A stretch of DNA of 64,000 nt from Fistulifera solaris (lineage: Eukaryota; Bacillariophyta; Bacillariophyceae; Naviculales; Stauroneidaceae), in NCBI GenBank assembly GCA_030295235.1, contig AP026176.1, positions 124,001-188,000 of the forward strand. The letters are read 5' to 3'. Below are positions 12,212 to 63,934 of this stretch, in pieces (positions within the stretch are counted from its first letter, which is position 1; the number at the start of each line of letters is the position of its first letter). The notes below the pieces were generated by a model that made no database searches, was not told where the DNA came from, and saw nothing but the letters and a program-made list of their open reading frames with translations. The position numbers and the translations under genes are program-made.

Positions 12212-12978
12212 TTCTACGTGTGGGCTAAAAATGAATAGCTTTTAGTTACGCATGAATGAGAAAAGCAAGGTGCGTTGCGCATTACTTGTTTTATTGCACG
12301 AATACGATAGAATGCGCTTTGCATGCGCAAAATTGCTACGTGAAACAGATTTTCATGTAAAGTTAAACCAGAGAGACGAGATCACGGATCCAGTATCAGT
12401 TGTACAGTTGGTTTAGAGTCATCGAGTGACGGAAGGATGCGAATGTCAATCGTGACTGGAAACGAATTTTTGTGTATTTTGTCTTTTTCCTCGTAACTTG
12501 TAACAAGTTGGTTAGAAATGACTGATTACAGCCAATTATTACTTTCCAAATGTCCAGTCTTTGGATAAAGTAGCTTTTTTCCGTCACGTTTTCGTATTTA
12601 TCAAAGGAAACGATGATTCGATTGACGGCAATAACGGCCGTGTCACGCTACATAGATTTGTTCCCCATTCCCCAAGTATTCCCCTTCCAATCACGCGACA
12701 AAGAAATAATAACACAAGATCTAGGTAGAATTGAAGTATAACTTACAACCGTGGCACGAAGGATCTCCTATGTCGCAACATTATGAGGCGGATTTCGGGA
12801 CTTACCAGTAGGTCTAGGAATTACTATGTAGGTAATACATCAATTACTGCACGCAAAAGTTGAAAATTAATACCCACGTGATCAAGCCAAGAGCTTACGA
12901 CATTTGTTTCTTCTTGCTTCGCTTCGCACAGTGCACACAATTTTCTCGCACATCGTTTTGCTTTGCGCTTACTCGAAG
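12212..12978. other. Divergent promoter region
   Basis: About 770 bases between the arrestin-like gene and the carbonic-anhydrase-like gene. A CACGTG E-box/G-box core lies near 12875-12882, about 100 bases before the next start. No gene is supported. Confidence 0.35.
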
Positions 12979-14597
12979 ATGAAAAACCTCTTGAGGATTC
13001 TGATCATTTTGACATGTCGAATGGGCAGCGCTGTCGCCACGGATGTCGCCAATTTAGATCGCTTTAACTACGATACAACCGTCCAAGCGAACGGCTTGAA
13101 AGACTATGGCCCCCAGGATTGGGGGCGCGTTCAATGCCTCGACAAGGACGTCTGCTTGGGCTACCCGGATTCTTTTGATGAAGCTATCGGCTGGTCCTAC
13201 CGCGAAAATTCGTGCCGTTGGTGCCCTCCCGGAAGTCGCGGCTGTGGTGTACATCATCAAAGTCCCATAAACCTTTATCGTCAAGTCACGCAAACCAGTG
13301 ATCCTTTGTACAACAAATGCATTGATGGACACAAGATGATCTTCTTCTATGGAACGTGCAGCTGGGATGATTTGGTACGACAAAATGCGTTCTCGATCGA
13401 ACGCCATGCATTAAAAATCATCCAACCCACAGAGCTCATGCCAGATGGGAGATATCGCATTGCGTGTCGAAATCCAGCCATTGGACGTCGTTTTCCTCGA
13501 TTGGATTATGCCAAAGGCTTTTCGCATTGGTGGCATTTAAGTCACACTGATTTGCACGTGCCTTCGGAACACACGCAAAATGGAAAGCGATACGATGGTG
13601 AATTGCAAATGTATCAGTTTTACTCCGTGTCTGGCCTGGAAGCGGGCGTCAACAATGAGGTAAGTTTGATGAAATCAGTACGTTTTGTTTGTATGCTTCC
13701 TACCACCCGACTAACAAGCCTTATGCTTTCCCACATCAAAATAGATGGGAACTGTCTCAGTCTTTTGCAAGCCTATGACGATAGCCCTGATTACGCCATG
13801 TTAAATCGTGTCATTTGTCAATGGCGAGAGGTTGAACAACAAACGCGCAGTGGCTGTGGATTGCCTAGCGTCAGTGCTCCATATGACGGTTGCCACTCCT
13901 CCAGACGACAACTCCGTCCAATTTCCTCCAGCGCTAACACAACGTTGCCGTCCAACCCAATGTCGGTACACGATATTATGTTGCATAATTATCTAAATCC
14001 CGACGAGTCTAAGATCTTGGTGATAGAAGACGACGAAGTTGCCGAGCCGAGCGATCAAGATGAGATGGACTGGGCCGCCTTTGTCCAGCAACAAGAAGAA
14101 TACCAGAATCATCGTCGTCAATTGACGAATCAACAAGTCAGTCCGTGGCACAACTACTGGCCTCTCATTGGCGTCCAAACGGAGTATTATTACCGATACA
14201 GTGGGACACAAACGGTCCCTCCCTGCTACGGTCGATTCGCGCGGGGCAACAATCGCGCACAAACCAACAATTGGCGTGTCATGAAAGATCCCATTCGTAT
14301 TTCCAGCCGACAGTTGAATGAATTGCATCGCTTACTGCGCGAGCGGATTGCTCCCCCGATGATCCTTTGGTGGCCTGTCAGGCCGATACCGCCGCCAAAA
14401 TAGACTCCAACACCGGTTTTGCTGATGTAGCACGGCCTTTACAAGGCAATCAAAAAGCGCATCACATGGTATATTGTGAATGTGAGAACTGGGGCAGTCA
14501 GTGGCAAGCCGATCAGGATTGGTGTCGTACGTATCGCAACGACAAGGATGCTCGTTTGTTTCAGCATCCTTACAACTTTTATACCGATGGGTTTTAG
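12979..14597 (+). CDS. Alpha-carbonic-anhydrase-like secreted protein
   Basis: Starts MKNLLRILIILTCRMGSAVA, a signal peptide; an in-frame upstream Met at 12904 would bury it. The body has the alpha-CA landmarks QSPINL and SEHTQNGKRYDGEL, then MGTVSVFL-x-AYDD, ICQWRE and a C-terminal CECENW...HPYNFYTDGF typical of long diatom members. Where canonical alpha-CA has ELHL (third zinc histidine) this protein has ELQM, and no clean HxH pair precedes SEHT, so catalysis is doubtful. An 85-nt intron lies at 13660-13744. Two one-base losses break the frame, in T4 (13763-13766) and C5 (14353-14357). With the intron removed and both bases restored the length is exactly 511 codons plus stop. Confidence 0.8.
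13660..13744 (+). other. Spliceosomal intron in the CA-like gene
   Basis: GTAAGT donor directly after AACAATGAG, a CTAAC branch-like word at 13711-13715 and a TAG acceptor at 13742-13744. Removing it joins GVNNE to MGTVSVF, the family-conserved sequence. The intron happens to be open in frame, so a naive single-exon call reads through it. Confidence 0.8.
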
Positions 14598-24053: not shown

Positions 24054-24541
24054 CCAGAAATTCTGGAATCGAAATTTCGCATCAAACAGAAATCCTGCGT
24101 GACTACCAGAAATTCTGGTACTGGCGTTTTCGGACGTACAGAAAGCCTGTGATTTTTTTTAGAGATGTTGCAAACGGTGCTTCGCGTCACATGGAGAATT
24201 TGTTCTGGAGCCGGTTTTTGAGTTAAACAGAAATCCGGTGCGAGTTCCAGAAATTTTGGCATCAAGCAAAGATTTTGCGCATGTTCCAGAAATTCTGGAA
24301 TTTGTTTTTAGGGATCAGACAGAAATCCTGTGGATGTTCCAGAAATTCTGGATTCGGTGTTTTTCGGTCGAACAGAAATTTTGTGGGGTTCCAGAATTTC
24401 TAAAATCGGTGTCTCGGGTCATACAAACATCCCGTCTAAGCTCCAGAAATTCTGGAATCGTCGTTTCGCATCACATAAAGATTCGGTGCAAAATCCAGAA
24501 ATTCTGGAATAGATGTCGTGTGTAAATTCCAGAAATTCTGG
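24054..24541. repeat. Array of CCAGAAATTCTGG palindromes, about 52-bp period
   Basis: Eight clear copies of a 13-base odd palindrome, usually within TTCCAGAAATTCTGGAA, start at 24054, 24106, 24247 (one change), 24286, 24339, 24443, 24495 and 24529, with a degenerate copy near 24391. Most spacings are 52-53 bases. The intervening sequence is partly conserved: an ACAGAAATCCTG-like word and a TCGGTGTTTCG-like word recur. It is a diverged tandem repeat in which the palindrome is the best-kept part. The 17-mer contains alternating TTC and GAA triplets as in heat-shock elements, but with one base instead of two at the centre. Confidence 0.75.
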
Positions 24542-24652
24542 AATTCGTTTGTTTCTCGTTAGAAAGAGATTTCGAGCTCTTTCCAAAAAATTATGTGAAC
24601 GTGGAACCGATGTTTTCGATCGGTTCTGTGGACGATGAGGAGGAGGTAGACT

Positions 24653-36111: not shown

Positions 36112-36170
36112 CTCATGACTGAAGTACAGTCGTGGAAAAGTTGCTCTACTACAGTTTCGACTATAGTGCA
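36112..36170 (+). repeat. Dispersed element, copy c
   Basis: CTCATGACTGAAGTACAGTCGTGG, then CTCTACTACAGTTTCGACTATAGTGC. It lies about 220 bases before the proposed start at 36393, in the same orientation as the gene. Confidence 0.5.
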
Positions 36171-36392
36171 AGCTGTTTTCTTTATTTGTATACAGACGGA
36201 AATTCTGAAATGCTGCGCCACGCTTTTTTGTTGCGACGATGGTTGATGGCGGTTGACGGCAAAATCTTTTTGGTTGTCATGGCATTTTTATCATCCTTGT
36301 TTCTCATCCTATTATCTATTTCGACAAGTCGATCGATTCGCCGACAGAATACAAGCCACGATAGTTCATTTAACAAGCCAAAGAATGCACAG

Positions 36393-39300
36393 ATGACAGG
36401 AAGGACGGCCTTTTGTATTACCTTCCTATGGATATCGTTGCTTTCCTGGCAATTGATGGCGTTTGCTCCTCGTCCTCATCCGCCTCGTACAACACCCACA
36501 ACGTCCATGGCACCCAATTTCCTCGAAAGTATCCGTCAAGCTTTCTTCAAAACCGAAAAAGAGATTCTCTTGAGGGACTTTCCCGTGCCGGATTCGGAAG
36601 CCGTACGAAAAACGCTGTCTCTCATTGCCGTCCATCCGCAACAAAAAGAGAACAAGAAGAAGAAAAAGAACAATATTTTCCACAGCATACAGCAATGGTG
36701 GAACCAACAGGCTTTTGCACGCAATGATGATGATTTCGTTTTGCAAAAGGATGTGGAGATTCTCAGTGCCGAGGAATACCTTTCCTTACGTCGGGAACTG
36801 CGACCCGATTTTCAAATTCCGATCAATAGCAATCCACCCATTACTGTCGATGTCGAAGAAGCTATTCAAAAATCAGAGATAAGCAAAGATAGAGTCCGAC
36901 CAAGACCGGACTTCACACCATCTACCAGTTTCGATTCAGTTAACAATGATCCACAGGTGATTCTTATCGTTCCACAGACGACTCCCGCTAATGTGGATGC
37001 ATTGCGTCCGCAACGCGATTCGGTACGTCCAATCTCCACAACTCGGGAAACACAACCGAATCAGCCCGCACGGACATCGTACCTGGAATCTTTGGAGGCT
37101 GTTGACCGAGTCGCTCGTTCGGAGGGAACTTTGCGAGAGTCGTCGTCGTATTTAGAAAGCTTGGATGCATCGGAATCTTTTGCCAGTCGCGTATCCCAGA
37201 TACCTCGTCAACAAGAGTTGGAAGCGCTGTCAAATCGACGGGAATGGGGAACGGAAGAAACGTTAATGCCACCGTTGGAAGATCCAGGGATCGCATCCAG
37301 TGATTCGAACTATTTGGACGTTGCAGTGATGAAAGAGGAGTCGCTCAAAACGCTTTCAGCGCAACAAGTGTTGGAAAATGATCGAAGTCAAGTTCCATTT
37401 GTTGATATACCAAAGCCATCCGGTCCAACGGGAGTTATAGCATCGGTGTCGTACTTGGAATCGTTGGAGGCTGTCGACCGAGTCGTTCGACCGGAGGCAA
37501 CTTCGCGGCAGTCGTCATATTTAGAAAGCTTGGATTCGGATGCATCGGAATCGTTTGCCGGCCGCATGTCCCTAATACCTCGTCAACAAGAAACGACGGC
37601 TACAGCAATGTTGAACCAACAGGGTTGGGGGACCAAAAGGAGACCACACTACCGTTGAAAGAACAACGGGTCACTTTCAGTGATTCAAGCTATTTGGACG
37701 GGGCAATTATGAGAGAGGAGTCGCTGAAATCACTTCCAACACAACAAGTACAAGAAAGTAGGCAATACTCATCGCTACAAGAGATGGAAGATTTAAAAGG
37801 TGCAATCAATACTTTCACTGATAATAATGTCCGAAACCAACTCGATCAAGGAGGCACATCTGAGGTGACGAAAGACGATACACCCGCAGAAATAGACCCA
37901 ACAGCCTATAGAGTTTCATTACAGCAAGAATCACTGTTCACGATGGGCGAATCTGCTGCCGATTCTGACGATTTACAAAGCTCAACAATCAGCTCGGAGG
38001 AAACTGCCAATAAATCCCGTGTCGGGTATAAAAGAGAGTCTACCCGTCCAGTTATACCACAAAGAGCTTCTTTCTCGCCCGTTCGGTCAACTGTAAAAGA
38101 TTACAACTCAACCGGTTCCAGCCCGTATCTCGCGTCGATGAGAGGATTGAAAAGCAGCCCATTCAACGATGAAAAGGAACCAATTATTGATACAAGGAAA
38201 CCTCGCAAGTCGTTTGAAGCGACAGGAATCGGAACATTTTCACCCGTTCGTGCTTCTATCAAAAATGTGAATTCCACAAGCTCCAGTCCATATCTTACTA
38301 ATTTGCGTGGGCAAGCAATTGCGCCATTTGATTTTAACGCAGCAACGTTTGCTGCATCAGCGAAAAGATGAATCCGTAACGCCCAATGAAGATACCACTC
38401 CGCTGGAGGCTGACACTCCGGATCATTCTGCGACACAACGAACATTTGCCGATGACTTGTTCTGGTCCCCGCAAAGAGCGCAACCCACAAAATCTTCCTT
38501 TGCCCCCGTACTCTCAGGAATTAAATACGTCAATGCTACAAGTTCAAGTCCCTATCTCACTGCTTTGCGAGGAACAACGACGACGCAGCCTCGCATGAAT
38601 TTGTTGAGACCGAAAGTGACAACCGATATGCAAGCCAATCAGTTACCTGTGGGGTTAAAAGACGTGAATGAACCGGTAGGACCCGTAGGTGCATCCCTCT
38701 CTCCGGTTCGCCCTTCTATCAAAAACATGAATTCGGCAAGTTCCAGCCCGTATCTCGACGCACTGAGAGGACGTACAATGCAGTCCTTCGAAGCGATGCA
38801 TGTCAGCTTCGTTCCAACAAATAATACCGTCGCAAAGACCCTAACGCGTCCTCCGGGTGCTTCCTTCTCACCCGTTCGCTCGACAATAAAGAATGTTGAC
38901 TCGACCGGATCTAGTCCGTATCTTGCCACGCTCAAAGGACGCACGATGGCAACATTCGAATCCATGTATAGTGCTAGCCGAACTTCGGACCGAACAATAG
39001 CGTTATCGGCGACAGAAACAAAAACAGCTCGACCAATGGGTGCATCCTTTTCGCCAGTGCGCTCTTCAATCAAAAACATGGACTCGAAAAGTTCCAGTCC
39101 GTATCTCGACGCACTGCGAGGACGTACAATGCAGTCCTTCGAAGCGATGCATGTCAGCTTCGTTCCAACAAATAATACCGTCGCAAAGACCCTAACGCGT
39201 CCTCCGGGTGCTTCCTTCTCACCCGTTCGCTCGACAATAAAGAATGTTGACTCGACCGGTTCCAGTCCGTATCTTGCCACGCTCAAAGGACGCACGATGG

Positions 39301-42300
39301 CAACATTCGAATCCATGTATAGTGCTAGCCGAACTTCGGACCGAACAATAGCGTTATCGGCGACAGAAACAAAAACAGCTCGACCAATGGGTGCATCCTT
39401 TTCGCCAGTGCGCTCTTCCATCAAAAACATGGACTCGAAAAGTTCAAGTCCGTATCTCGACGCACTGAGAGGAAGTACCATGAAGTCTTTTGAAGCGACG
39501 CCTGTCAGCTTTGGTCCTTCAAACACGGTCGCAAAAACCCCGACGCATCCTCCCGGTGCTTCCTTCTCACCCGTTCGCTCGACAATAAAGAATGTTGACT
39601 CGACCGGTTCCAGTCCGTATCTTGCCACGCTCAAAGGACGCACGATGGCAACATTCGAATCCATGTATAGTGCTAGCCGAACTTCGGACCGAACAATAGC
39701 GTTATCGGCGACAGAAACTAAAACAGCTCGAGCCATGGGCGCATCCTTCTCTCCGGTTCGCCCTTCTATCAAAAACATGGACTCGAAAAGTTCCAGTCCG
39801 TATCTCGACGCACTGAGAGGACGTACAATGCAGTCCTTCGAAGCGATGCATGTCAGCTTCGTTCCAACAAATAATACCGTCGCAAAGACCCTAACGCGTC
39901 CTCCGGGTGCTTCCTTCTCACCCGTTCGCTCGACAATAAAGAATGTTGACTCGACCGGATCTAGTCCGTATCTTACCACGCTCAAAGGACGCACGATGGC
40001 AACATTCGAATCCATGTATAGTGCTAGCCGAACTTCGGACCGAACAATAGCGTTATCGGCGACAGAAACAAAAACAGCTCGAGCCATGGGTGCATCCTTC
40101 TCTCCGGTTCGCCCTTCTATCAAAAACATGGACTCGAAAAGTTCCAGCCCGTATCTCGACGCACTGAGAGGACGTACAATGCAGTCCTTCGAAGCGATGC
40201 ATGTCAGCTTCGTTCCAACAAATAATACCGTCGCAAAGACCCTAACGCGTCCTCCGGGTGCTTCCTTCTCACCCGTTCGCTCGACAATAAAGAATGTTGA
40301 CTCGACCGGATCTAGTCCGTATCTTGCCACGCTCAAAGGACGCACGATGGCAACATTCGAATCCATGTATAGTGCTAGCCGAACTTCGGACCGAACAATA
40401 GCGTTATCGGCGACAGAAACAAAAACAGCTCGACCAATGGGTGCATCCTTCTCTCCGGTTCGCCCTTCCATCAAAAACATGGACTCGAAAAGTTCAAGTC
40501 CGTATCTCGACGCACTGAGAGGAAGTACCATGAAGTCTTTTGAAGCGACGCCTGTCAGCTTTGGTCCTTCAAACACGGTCGCAAAAACCCCGACGCGTCC
40601 TCCCGGTGCTTCCTTCTCACCCGTTCGCTCGACAATAAAGAATGTTGACTCGACCGGATCTAGTCCGTATCTTGCCACGCTCAAAGGACGCACGATGGCA
40701 ACATTCGAATCCATGTATAGTGCTAGCCGAACTTCGGACCGAACAATAGCGTTATCGGCGACAGAAACTAAAACAGCTCGAGCCATGGGCGCATCCTTCT
40801 CTCCGGTTCGCCCTTCTATCAAAAACATGAATTCGGCAAGTTCCAGCCCGTATCTCGACGCACTGCGAGGACGTACAATGCAGTCCTTCGAAGCGATGCA
40901 TGTCAGCTTCGTTCCAACAAATAATACCGTCGCAAAGACCCCGACGCATCCTCCCGGTGCTTCCTTCTCGCCCGTTCGCTCGACAATAAAGAATGTTGAC
41001 TCGACCGGATCTAGTCCGTATCTTACCACGCTCAAAGGACGCACGATGGCAACATTCGAATCCATGTATAGTGCTAGCCGAACTTCGGACCGAACAATAG
41101 CGTTATCGGCGACAGAAACAAAAACAGCTCGACCAATGGGTGCATCCTTTTCGCCAGTGCGCTCTTCAATCAAAAACATGGACTCGAAAAGTTCCAGACC
41201 GTATCTCGACGCACTGAGAGGACATACAATGCAGTCTTTGGAAGCGACGCCTGTCAGCTTTGGTCCTTCAAACACGGTCGCAAAAACCCCGACGCATCCT
41301 CCCGGTGCTTCCTTGTCACCCGTTCGCTCGACAATAAAGAATGTTGACTCGACCAGTTCCAGTCCGTATCTTGCCACGCTCAAAGGACGCACGATGGCAA
41401 CATTCGAATCCATGTATAGTGCTAGCCGAACTTCGGACCGAACAATAGCGTTATCGGCGACAGAAACAAAAACAGCTCGACCAATGGGTGCATCCTTTTC
41501 GCCAGTGCGCTCTTCAATCAAAAACATGGACTCGAAAAGTTCCAGTCCGTATCTCGACGCACTGAGAGGACGTACAATGCAGTCCTTCGAAGCGACGCCT
41601 GTCAGCTTTGGTCCTTCAAACACGGTCGCAAAAACCCCGACGCGTCCTCCGGGTGCTTCCTTCTCACCCGTTCGCTCGACAATAAAGAATGTTGACTCGA
41701 CCGGCTCTACTTCGTACCTCGATTCGCTGAAGGGACATACTATGTTATTGACTGACTTAAAAATCGAGAATCTTGTGTCCGAAAACACAACGGATTCTTT
41801 TGCTTCGCTGTCGACAAGCCAAGAGCTGCCACGACCTTCTGGTGTATCCTTCGCGCCAGTTCGCGCTTCGATCGAATACATGAACCCAAAAAGTCCCAGC
41901 CCATATCTCGAATCGCCCGATTCGACGCCTGTTACTTCGGTTCCTGCAGATGAATCAACAACAACAACACAAGCGAAAGCCATACATACTCATGCTTCCT
42001 TCTCGCCAGTCCGTTCATCGATAAAAATGTTGATTCGACCGCCTCCACTCCCTACCTTGATGCGTTGAAAGGGCATACCATGCCGCCCGATGGTCGTGAA
42101 GGATCATTTGTGTCACTACCAAGCCGAACAATCAATACGTTTGATTCAAATCTTTTGTCTCAACAGTCGGCTGATTTGCACCAGCACTGCTTAAACGAAA
42201 AACAAGAACGTCGCAGAACAGATCATTCATCTACGATCAATGAGACTAGCGTACCCCGTTTTGTGGTTTCGTCGAATCTGTCAGGCTTTCGCCCCACACC

Positions 42301-42673
42301 AGCGAGTGAAGATTTCCGCGAGTCGTCCATTCTAGATAATAAGGAGAATAATCAACCCGCTTCCCAGGACTTGCAAATTTGGCTTAATGAAGCTCGCAAG
42401 CACGCACCATTGCTTCAAGCAGGTCCTGATAAACCAGATTTGAAAAATAGTGTTCGAATGATGTCGTCGCCTATAGCGAGTCCGTACCTCGACAAGCTTA
42501 TCTCGTCACCTCGTCAAGAGTCTCCCAAGCCGCAGGGTAGCTCTATTGTTCACAAAACGAGCCGATGGTCACCTAGAAACGGTGGCGGCCCCGACGCAGC
42601 GGACTTGAAACATAAAGTACTCATGTCTTCATCTTCATCGAACCCCTACTTGGATAGCTTACGGCAAGAATGA
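36393..42673 (+). CDS. Giant plastid-targeted disordered repeat protein
   Basis: One gene of about 2,093 residues after three joins: A4 at 37635-37638 (one base short), A4 at 38363-38366 (one extra) and A5 at 42023-42027 (one short); corrected length divides by three. From 36393 it begins MTGRTAFCITFLWISLLSW, a signal peptide, then QLMAFAPRPHPPRT, a diatom plastid A-F cut with basic transit region. Met at 36210 adds a second hydrophobic segment. Residues from about 200 on are disordered. N-terminal part: diverged SYLESLEAVDRV / SSYLESLDAS units. Centre: 23 copies of a module like ASFSPVRSTIKNVDSTGSS followed by PYLATLKG, about 55-61 residues apart. C-terminal part: SPYLDKL and NPYLDSL. No known domain. 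A multivalent plastid linker is inferred. Confidence 0.8.
38691..41740 (+). repeat. Tandem array of alternating A/B modules (about 350-bp dimers)
   Basis: DNA-level tandem repeat inside the giant gene. B units (about 55-56 codons, IKNMDSKSSSPYLDALRG type) alternate strictly with A units (61 codons, IKNVDSTGSSPYLATLKG type), giving about nine dimers of 348-351 bp, many nearly identical. B units come in two forms, MHVSFVPTNN and TPVSFGPS. Their order is MH, MH, TP, MH, MH, TP, MH, TP, TP. A marker word GAGCCATGGGC recurs exactly 1,050 bases apart (39730 and 40780), showing duplication in blocks of three dimers. No frame break occurs inside the array. Confidence 0.9.
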
Positions 42674-63490: not shown

Positions 63491-63934
63491 ATGAAGACAG
63501 CACTCGCATCGATTCTGTTTCTCGCCATGAGCGCACAAGGCCATTTCATCGGCGACGATTCACGTGATTTACAAGACAACATCACCGATTCCACCCCTAC
63601 CATCGTTCCAGCGATTGTCGACACGGCGGAGCCTACCGTCTCTCCCACGGTCGCCCCCGATCCGACCGCCGCGCCCACGGCACAAGATACGCCGGCTCCC
63701 ACGGTCGCACCCACCGTTCCGCCCACGGTGGCACCCACCATTGCGCCCACGACCGTGGCACCGACCGTAGCTCCGACCGTGGCACCGACCGTAGCTCCGA
63801 CGGCCATTGAAGTGACGATTGAAGTCAATGGAACCGAAGTACCGGCGCCGGCTCCGACGTCGGGGTCGGCCTATGTTGAGGGAGGAGTCAAGTCATTTTT
63901 GGTTCTCTTGGTTGTGACGGCCTTGTTACTCTAA
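63491..63934 (+). CDS. Mucin-like GPI-type surface protein 2
   Basis: 147 residues, intact. Signal peptide MKTALASILFLAMSAQGHF, then PTIVPAIVDTAEPTVSPT, shared with gene 1. A run of APTVAPTVAPT-type tetrapeptides is encoded by slightly varied codons. A short EVTIEVNGTEV block has one N-glycosylation sequon (NGT). The end APTSGSAYVEGGVKSFLVLLVVTALLL is a GPI-attachment signal with the same TSGS as gene 1. The two genes share orientation and layout and are a tandem duplication whose stalks have diverged by repeat slippage. Confidence 0.72.
   Translation: MKTALASILFLAMSAQGHFIGDDSRDLQDNITDSTPTIVPAIVDTAEPTVSPTVAPDPTAAPTAQDTPAPTVAPTVPPTVAPTIAPTTVAPTVAPTVAPTVAPTAIEVTIEVNGTEVPAPAPTSGSAYVEGGVKSFLVLLVVTALLL

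Follow-up and report, generated by a model that had tools for sequence, protein, structure and literature searches.

Among diatom Rubisco linkers, PYCO1 of Phaeodactylum tricornutum alone was found described in the literature searched, as far as the available portions of the sources go. As reported, this plastid protein is disordered, has a pI of 10.03 and six repeats of about 80 residues, and carries the stickers KWSPR/Q and GTGYNP in addition to prion-like domains; a BLAST search by its authors gave no homologue in other sequenced algae (PMC10288592). EPYC1 of Chlamydomonas is characterized as a multivalent, disordered protein of the stroma with spaced binding motifs (PMC10473226 and PMC11570498, both in part). 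Rubisco linkers are also found by FLIPPer, which uses disorder, repeats and a spacing of 20-120 residues (PMC11570498, in part). A linker from Fistulifera was not found in the available parts of PMC11670289, PMC11142338 and PMC6723447, and a literature search on the module motifs described below returned no paper in which two of them, or one of them together with diatoms, occurred.

Fistulifera solaris has been described as allopolyploid, its chromosomes forming 42 homoeologous pairs that are 75% similar overall (PMC5935921, in part). The analysed window, a stretch of 64,000 nucleotides, comprises positions 124001-188000 of contig C40, and genome searches were carried out on the 51.7-Mb assembly with its 61 contigs. 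A 23-base guide-RNA target which both homoeologous apt genes of F. solaris share, according to a paper that reports an RNP method for this species (PMC13276009, in part), was detected exactly twice in the assembly, on C38 and C39, and its reversed control had no match. The window is collinear with contig C41 across about 29 kb (24.7-54.1 kb), which places a homoeologous copy of the repeat-protein gene on C41. The original prediction had described one gene at 36393..42673. Its start at 36393 and its end at 42673 on the + strand were retained, whereas the single open frame was not, as the region consists of four open pieces in two frames that are connected by three single-base frame changes. The open pieces sum to a predicted protein of about 2,090 residues with 227 kDa and a pI of 9.57; EPYC1 is several times shorter. 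The features of the locus are as follows.

36123-37658, 37406-38371, 38271-42068 and 41954-42673, + strand: the four open pieces, from the ORF list
36393..36461, + strand: signal peptide of 23 residues, cut before FAP, from the sequence; helix predicted over residues 2-23 with pLDDT 77-88 in the first 20 residues; start conserved in the homoeolog
36393..37635, + strand: N-terminal piece in frame 0; disordered, its SYLESL boxes covered by helices predicted at low confidence
37077..37705, + strand: six lone YL boxes (SYLESL, NYLDV and SYLDG type) with no FSPV box, from a motif scan; weak DPC2 match at about 37449-37553
37636, + strand: single-base frame change, frame 0 to 2, beside an A-run; not in the homoeolog
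37637..38364, + strand: second piece, frame 2, with modules 1 and 2
38365, + strand: single-base frame change, frame 2 to 0, at GCGAAAAGATGAA, beside an A-run; in both homoeologs
38366..42021, + strand: third piece, frame 0, with a lone FWSPQ (38463), modules 3-22 and, at 42000, the opening box of module 23
38688..41716, + strand: tandem array made of 8.7 copies of a 351-bp unit, each unit holding two modules; 93% matches, score 5064
42022, + strand: single-base frame change within module 23, frame 0 to 2, beside an A-run
42026..42673, + strand: C-terminal piece, frame 2, to the stop, with the YL box of module 23 (42053) and lone YL boxes at 42485 and 42647
42563..42577, + strand: RWSPR, with no other [KR]WSP site in the locus; the homoeolog has RWLPR instead

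From 36393 the protein begins with MTGRTAFCITFLWISLLSWQLMA^FAPRP, so that the signal peptide with an A-F-A-P plastid cut, as claimed beforehand, is predicted to be present; the copy on C41 begins with MTGRTAFYTSLWISSLLSWPLVA^FTTP. Since the region upstream of 36393 is poorly conserved between the homoeologs, the start was placed at this position. A crude presequence test, which scored a hydrophobic core followed by [AGS]F over the 571 open ATG contexts of the window, was passed by nine of them, including 36393 and an in-frame ATG at 36279. The C41 presequence was not among the passes, its hydrophobic core lying under the threshold of the test. Phe at position +1 of the predicted cut is an established mark of diatom plastid import and occurs in the target gene as well as in both related gene pairs described below.

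Each module is composed of an FSPVR box and a subsequent SSPYLxxLxG box. About 23 such two-box modules, some 55-61 residues apart, had been proposed; 23 were counted, each FSPV-type box being paired with a YL box, at a spacing of mostly 55-61 and overall 50-87 residues. Within the array, distances of 55/56 and 61 residues alternate, and the range of 50 to 87 applies outside of it. In 22 of the 23 modules Tyr follows Phe at a distance of 18 residues, the last module being one base short at the frame change. In total the protein contains 31 YL boxes, namely 23 in modules, six lone ones before and two lone ones after them. The spacers are basic and rich in Ser/Thr, in agreement with the basic, Ser-rich spacers described at the outset: to the pI of 9.57 for the whole protein comes one of 10.62 for the array, which is devoid of Trp and Cys and contains more Arg (72) than Lys (52). 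The mean charge of a module is +2 (17 array modules).

SPVR is the cyclin-dependent kinase consensus, and Ki-67 is an example of a large basic repeat protein that coats chromosomes. Since the array contains 20 [ST]Px[KR] sites, where 1000 shuffles average 3.1 and never exceed 10, a phospho-regulated repeat protein of the nucleus or cytosol has to be considered. We regard this as very improbable in view of the signal peptide with its plastid cut and of the related proteins, which carry SPFG and not SPxR. Moreover, phosphorylation of stickers occurs in pyrenoids too, where KEY1 phosphorylates EPYC1 at the Rubisco-binding sites (PMC13086578, in part).

The proposed absence of a folded domain was supported by the domain searches and by structure prediction. 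A Pfam search of the repeat protein gave no match of weight, and the AlphaFold2 models reached a mean pLDDT of 34.5 for the array, with 234 of 234 residues below 50 (five-sequence model), and of 41.2 for the N-terminal 414 residues, of which 356 were below 50 (single-sequence model). Besides the signal helix the N-terminal region showed no fold, with low-confidence helices over the SYLESL boxes, and the array model contained no consistent helix at the boxes. High Pfam/NCBIfam scores of the array (PI31, FpoD and similar) were rejected because no single stretch passes alone. Searches of the PDB revealed nothing related to the array, whose best match (E 1.1) was ascribed to chance, or to the related protein on C24, and nothing was found there with a peptide built from the PYCO1 motifs, as distinct from the PYCO1 sequence itself. 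In a viral contig collection the queries A2, A1 and the C24 protein had 7, 32 and 2 pattern matches, and in a collection of prokaryotic and viral genome contigs the C24 protein had 12; none of these was confirmed. Both collections consist of viruses and prokaryotes, and therefore say nothing about other diatoms.

To analyse selection, consensus units were built from 8 units of the C40 array and from the 4 units of the C41 array that are readable in frame, and these were compared codon by codon, with the module limits set to the motif named in the original prediction. The modules (52 codons) are 92% identical between both copies, with a dN of 0.035, a dS of 0.387 and a dN/dS of about 0.09, whereas the spacers (64 codons) are 62.5% identical, with a dN of 0.225, a dS of 0.331 and a dN/dS of about 0.68. 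Nonsynonymous changes are distributed unequally between modules and spacers (Fisher p = 5e-5). The boxes were kept by selection and the spacers were let drift, which is the strongest result of the analysis, and this contrast is the pattern expected of stickers and spacers. An analysis of disorder and stickers had been named as a check of the idea, and its outcome is favourable: disorder is predicted, and between the homoeologs the modules are constrained while the spacers drift.

All three frame changes (37636, 38365 and 42022) adjoin A-runs with a length of four or five. The homoeolog carries one extra base at 37636 and reads through, and at 38365 the sequence is the same in both copies, within 49 identical bases (38339-38387). 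The C41 copy is likewise interrupted by several frame changes. Three changes in the target, several in the other copy and one in both could point to a decaying gene or an assembly product from which no full protein is made. This explanation appears quite unlikely to us, as all changes in the target lie beside A-runs and the reading frame has evidently been under selection: in the homoeolog alignment of 36393-38650, 22 of the 24 internal gaps have a length divisible by three, not counting the two terminal gaps, and the dN/dS of the modules is near 0.09. In the C41 array, one kind of site is present as A5/A5 four times, as A5/A4 three times and as A4/A4 twice, an A5/A4 difference at five of nine sites, and a neighbouring site lacks one C in two of nine. 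Furthermore, five of ten neighbouring ORFs of the window switch frame against C41, including a kinesin at 98% identity, a count in which introns are not excluded and one of the ten ORFs is covered over 76 of 484 residues only. In our reading most of the frame changes are assembly errors; the change at 38365, present in both copies, may stem from a systematic error common to them, from an intron or from +1 recoding.

The target resembles PYCO1 in its disorder, its basic character and a repeated aromatic-Ser-Pro box, with repeats tens of residues apart. It differs by its 23 modules instead of six repeats, its length of about 2,090 residues and an array without Trp. With EPYC1 it shares multivalency, disorder and spaced motifs, a likeness judged by the description of EPYC1. 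Its disorder and its spacing of 50-87, mostly 55-61 residues lie within the criteria of FLIPPer, as given in the available part of PMC11570498. In these criteria of disorder and spacing it is also similar to CsLinker from Chlorella, and it is dissimilar in that its predicted helices are of low confidence over the SYLESL boxes and not consistent over the array modules (PMC11570498, in part).

A likeness to PYCO1 by sticker, which had been suggested as well, was not borne out. The codon pattern for the sticker KWSPRGG had 0 matches in the 51.7-Mb genome and its reversed control had 1, and GTGYNP occurred 0 times in the three forward frames of 36393-42673, the C41 copy and the four related loci. 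The locus contains one RWSPR and one FWSPQ, and the lone RWSPR is replaced by RWLPR in the homoeolog. The Pfam family DPC2 (PF25195, 'Diatom pyrenoid component 2') matched at a SYLESL double box with 15.5 bits and an E of 0.025, well under the curated cut-off of 70 bits; the match covers model positions 21-57 of 105, and it recurs in sub-pieces of the protein at 13.1 and 13.8 bits. It is absent from the homoeolog and is not obtained with the first SYLESL double box by itself. Among ten shuffles, five of which kept the YLESL boxes in place, DPC2 appeared in none, while some other family was matched at E 0.06-0.07 in three, so that E-values of that size arise by chance. A DPC2 search of the genome gave no match, with equally silent controls, and a literature search for DPC2 yielded papers unrelated by title and abstract. 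As judged by sequence, the target fails the tests for PYCO1 and DPC2, and the DPC2 match is to be taken as a lead, no more.

Codon adaptation was calculated with 14 of 16 light-harvesting fragments as reference, after four of 20 without a recognised frame had been dropped. Values above 0.6 were obtained for 14 of the 16 light-harvesting genes, or for 13 of them when each was excluded from its own reference, the target ranged from 0.44 to 0.50, the related proteins from 0.47 to 0.53 and 15 other ORFs of the window from 0.41 to 0.56. The target falls into the range of ordinary genes, which suggests that the protein is probably not very abundant, and a low-abundance tether or hub fits better than a main matrix linker. 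A genome search for Pro_CA (beta carbonic anhydrase) gave no match, hence a pyrenoidal control of codon bias was not available.

A genome search with the two-module unit detected both copies and, beyond them, a single weak match, which is on C22 (E 0.05). The latter sits in an open frame of 756 residues with its own plastid-type signal peptide and the modules YSPFGKKMADGKSSSPYLNAV. This frame pairs with frames on C21, and a second gene pair is located on C23 and C24. The module of these pairs is YSPFGKKM...SSSPYLNxV with 16 residues between the boxes, and each protein contains 6 to 13 of them; the spacing is 58 residues in four of six intervals in C24 and mostly alternates between 30 and 69-77 in C22. 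Three of the proteins were measured at 430-732 residues with a pI of 9.6-9.7, and they are rich in Ala/Ser/Pro/Gly. An alignment of the module profiles from the target and from the related pairs by hhalign gave a probability of 94% and a score of 28.4, which was reached by none of 500 column shuffles (best 21.0) and compares to 6.9 for the reversed profile. This likeness may reflect common descent or convergence on one partner, and both are possible. Genome searches for further module families gave no convincing one; the only other match, on C7 to the C21/C22 module (E 1.2), falls within a short frame that faces a long one and was ascribed to chance. FNIII-A_GpJ exceeded its cut-off in three of four scans of C21/C22 pieces and was rejected because the match consists of 35-45 residues of low-complexity repeat in a phage tail model.

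Both pairs have a plastid-type presequence, a related two-box module and a basic pI in common with the target. They differ in being shorter, in a module with 16 residues between its boxes and in spacers as conserved as the modules, and with regard to length and repeat number (6 to 13 compared to six) they are nearer to PYCO1 than the target is. Modules and spacers did not differ in C23/C24 or in C21/C22 (Fisher p 0.23 and 0.14), both being conserved; the C21/C22 comparison covers codons 1-265 of the C22 protein and the first of the C21 pieces. The contrast between modules and spacers in the target is therefore not general.

The composition of these relatives also bears on a secreted biosilica or cell-wall protein of the silaffin or cingulin type, for which a signal peptide and basic, Ser-rich repeats would be typical. 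The target has a signal peptide and Ser/Thr-rich basic repeats, and the C22-C24 proteins are Ser-rich with about 6% each of Tyr and Lys. Lysine clusters are a mark of silaffins, whereas Arg (72) exceeds Lys (52) in the array, and the A-F-A-P at the cut of the target together with Phe at +1 in all three families speaks against such a protein. A biosilica protein is an unlikely explanation.

As the best explanation we propose, with a probability slightly below one half (about 0.47), a multivalent plastid scaffold of stickers and spacers, with the pyrenoid as its likeliest site and Rubisco as its likeliest client. A nucleus-encoded protein would be imported via the secretory route into the plastid stroma, where about 23 two-box modules and eight lone YL boxes would act as short binding motifs. 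Some of these motifs would perhaps form nascent helices, and basic, Ser/Thr-rich, disordered spacers would hold them mostly 55-61 residues apart. The scaffold would condense a multimeric plastid protein or tether the condensate to another structure, most likely in the pyrenoid, and Rubisco would be the likeliest and not the sole possible client. The computations established the sequence architecture, the predicted disorder, the selection at the level of the modules and the presence of a related module in two gene pairs. The assignment to the pyrenoid is plausible and rests on the design, the presequence and the weak DPC2 match. For the putative pyrenoid-type function the chance is about one half, and for a putative direct binding of Rubisco it is lower.

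A scaffold of the same design in the plastid stroma might instead serve a client outside the pyrenoid, such as the thylakoid, the nucleoid, the division machinery or a metabolic enzyme cluster. The plastid presequence and the sticker-spacer selection fit this explanation equally, and it is in keeping with ordinary codon adaptation and with a genome that has no match to the PYCO1 sticker. The one pyrenoid-related family match, weak as it is, concerns a diatom pyrenoid component, and the module spacing fits the linker criteria (PMC11570498, in part), so that we consider such a client possible and rather doubtful.

Regarding a pyrenoid scaffold in general, the missing PYCO1 sticker, the DPC2 score below its cut-off, the ordinary codons and the frame changes in both copies were counted against it. 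The same applies to the array model, in which no residue exceeds pLDDT 50 and the boxes form no consistent helix, to the missing contrast between modules and spacers in the related pairs and to spacing and disorder, which are generic to repeat proteins.

Returning to the proposed pyrenoid scaffold, F. solaris might use a common address motif, aromatic-Ser-Pro...Ser-Ser-x-Tyr-Leu-x-x-hydrophobic, for disordered plastid proteins from three or more nuclear gene pairs. One pair would code for a giant hub, with about 31 YL boxes, and two for smaller linkers, and all of these would jointly build the pyrenoid of a diatom whose genome gave no match to the PYCO1 sticker, in the manner of the shared Rubisco-binding motif of Chlamydomonas. 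We put this forward as a speculative and on balance improbable extension.

The original prediction was right in its description of a multivalent plastid scaffold design, with import into the plastid as a predicted step. The module of the target is repeated and selectively constrained, differs from that of PYCO1 and has a relative in two other gene pairs. If it binds another partner than Rubisco, it would still mark a kind of plastid scaffold that was not found in the literature searched. If the proposed reading is true, the module would provide a testable candidate for Rubisco condensation in other diatoms, and a short peptide along with it.

The frame change at GCGAAAAGATGAA in the gene encoding the giant plastid-type repeat protein is present in both homoeologs and is enclosed by 49 bases (window 38339-38387) which are identical between the two copies. 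It may be due to an intron, to +1 recoding at this site or to the same systematic error in both copies. Antisense to the tandem array of this gene runs an open frame of 1,116 residues (window 38639-41989, minus strand); it is regarded as a side effect of the repetitive sequence. Short tandem arrays, of 52/34 and 12/24 bases, are also located at window 24281-24544 and 63698-63801.

An ORF at window 12871-14403 (plus strand) matches eukaryotic-type (alpha) carbonic anhydrases (E 7.7e-12). For beta carbonic anhydrases (Pro_CA) no match was obtained at E 0.001 across the whole F. solaris genome; nine of the 14 control genomes were positive. Contig C60 of the assembly (232,645 bases) carries two rbcL matches on opposite strands, perhaps due to an inverted repeat or to plastid DNA assembled more than once. 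Similar light-harvesting matches were detected on contigs C28, which comprises exactly 300,000 bases and is perhaps cut, and C29 (825,955 bases).

Besides the main gene, two more homoeologous gene pairs, on contigs C21/C22 and C23/C24, encode plastid-type repeat proteins:

L024:1309-3579, repeat-protein gene on C22
L058:1752-4365, repeat-protein gene on C21
L056:2043-3524, repeat-protein gene on C24
L057:2239-3552, repeat-protein gene on C23

Their products are rich in Ser, Ala, Pro and Gly, contain about 6% Tyr and are characterized by the module YSPFGKKM...SSSPYLNxV. With regard to length and repeat number, PYCO1, the Rubisco linker of Phaeodactylum tricornutum, is closer to these proteins than to the giant protein.
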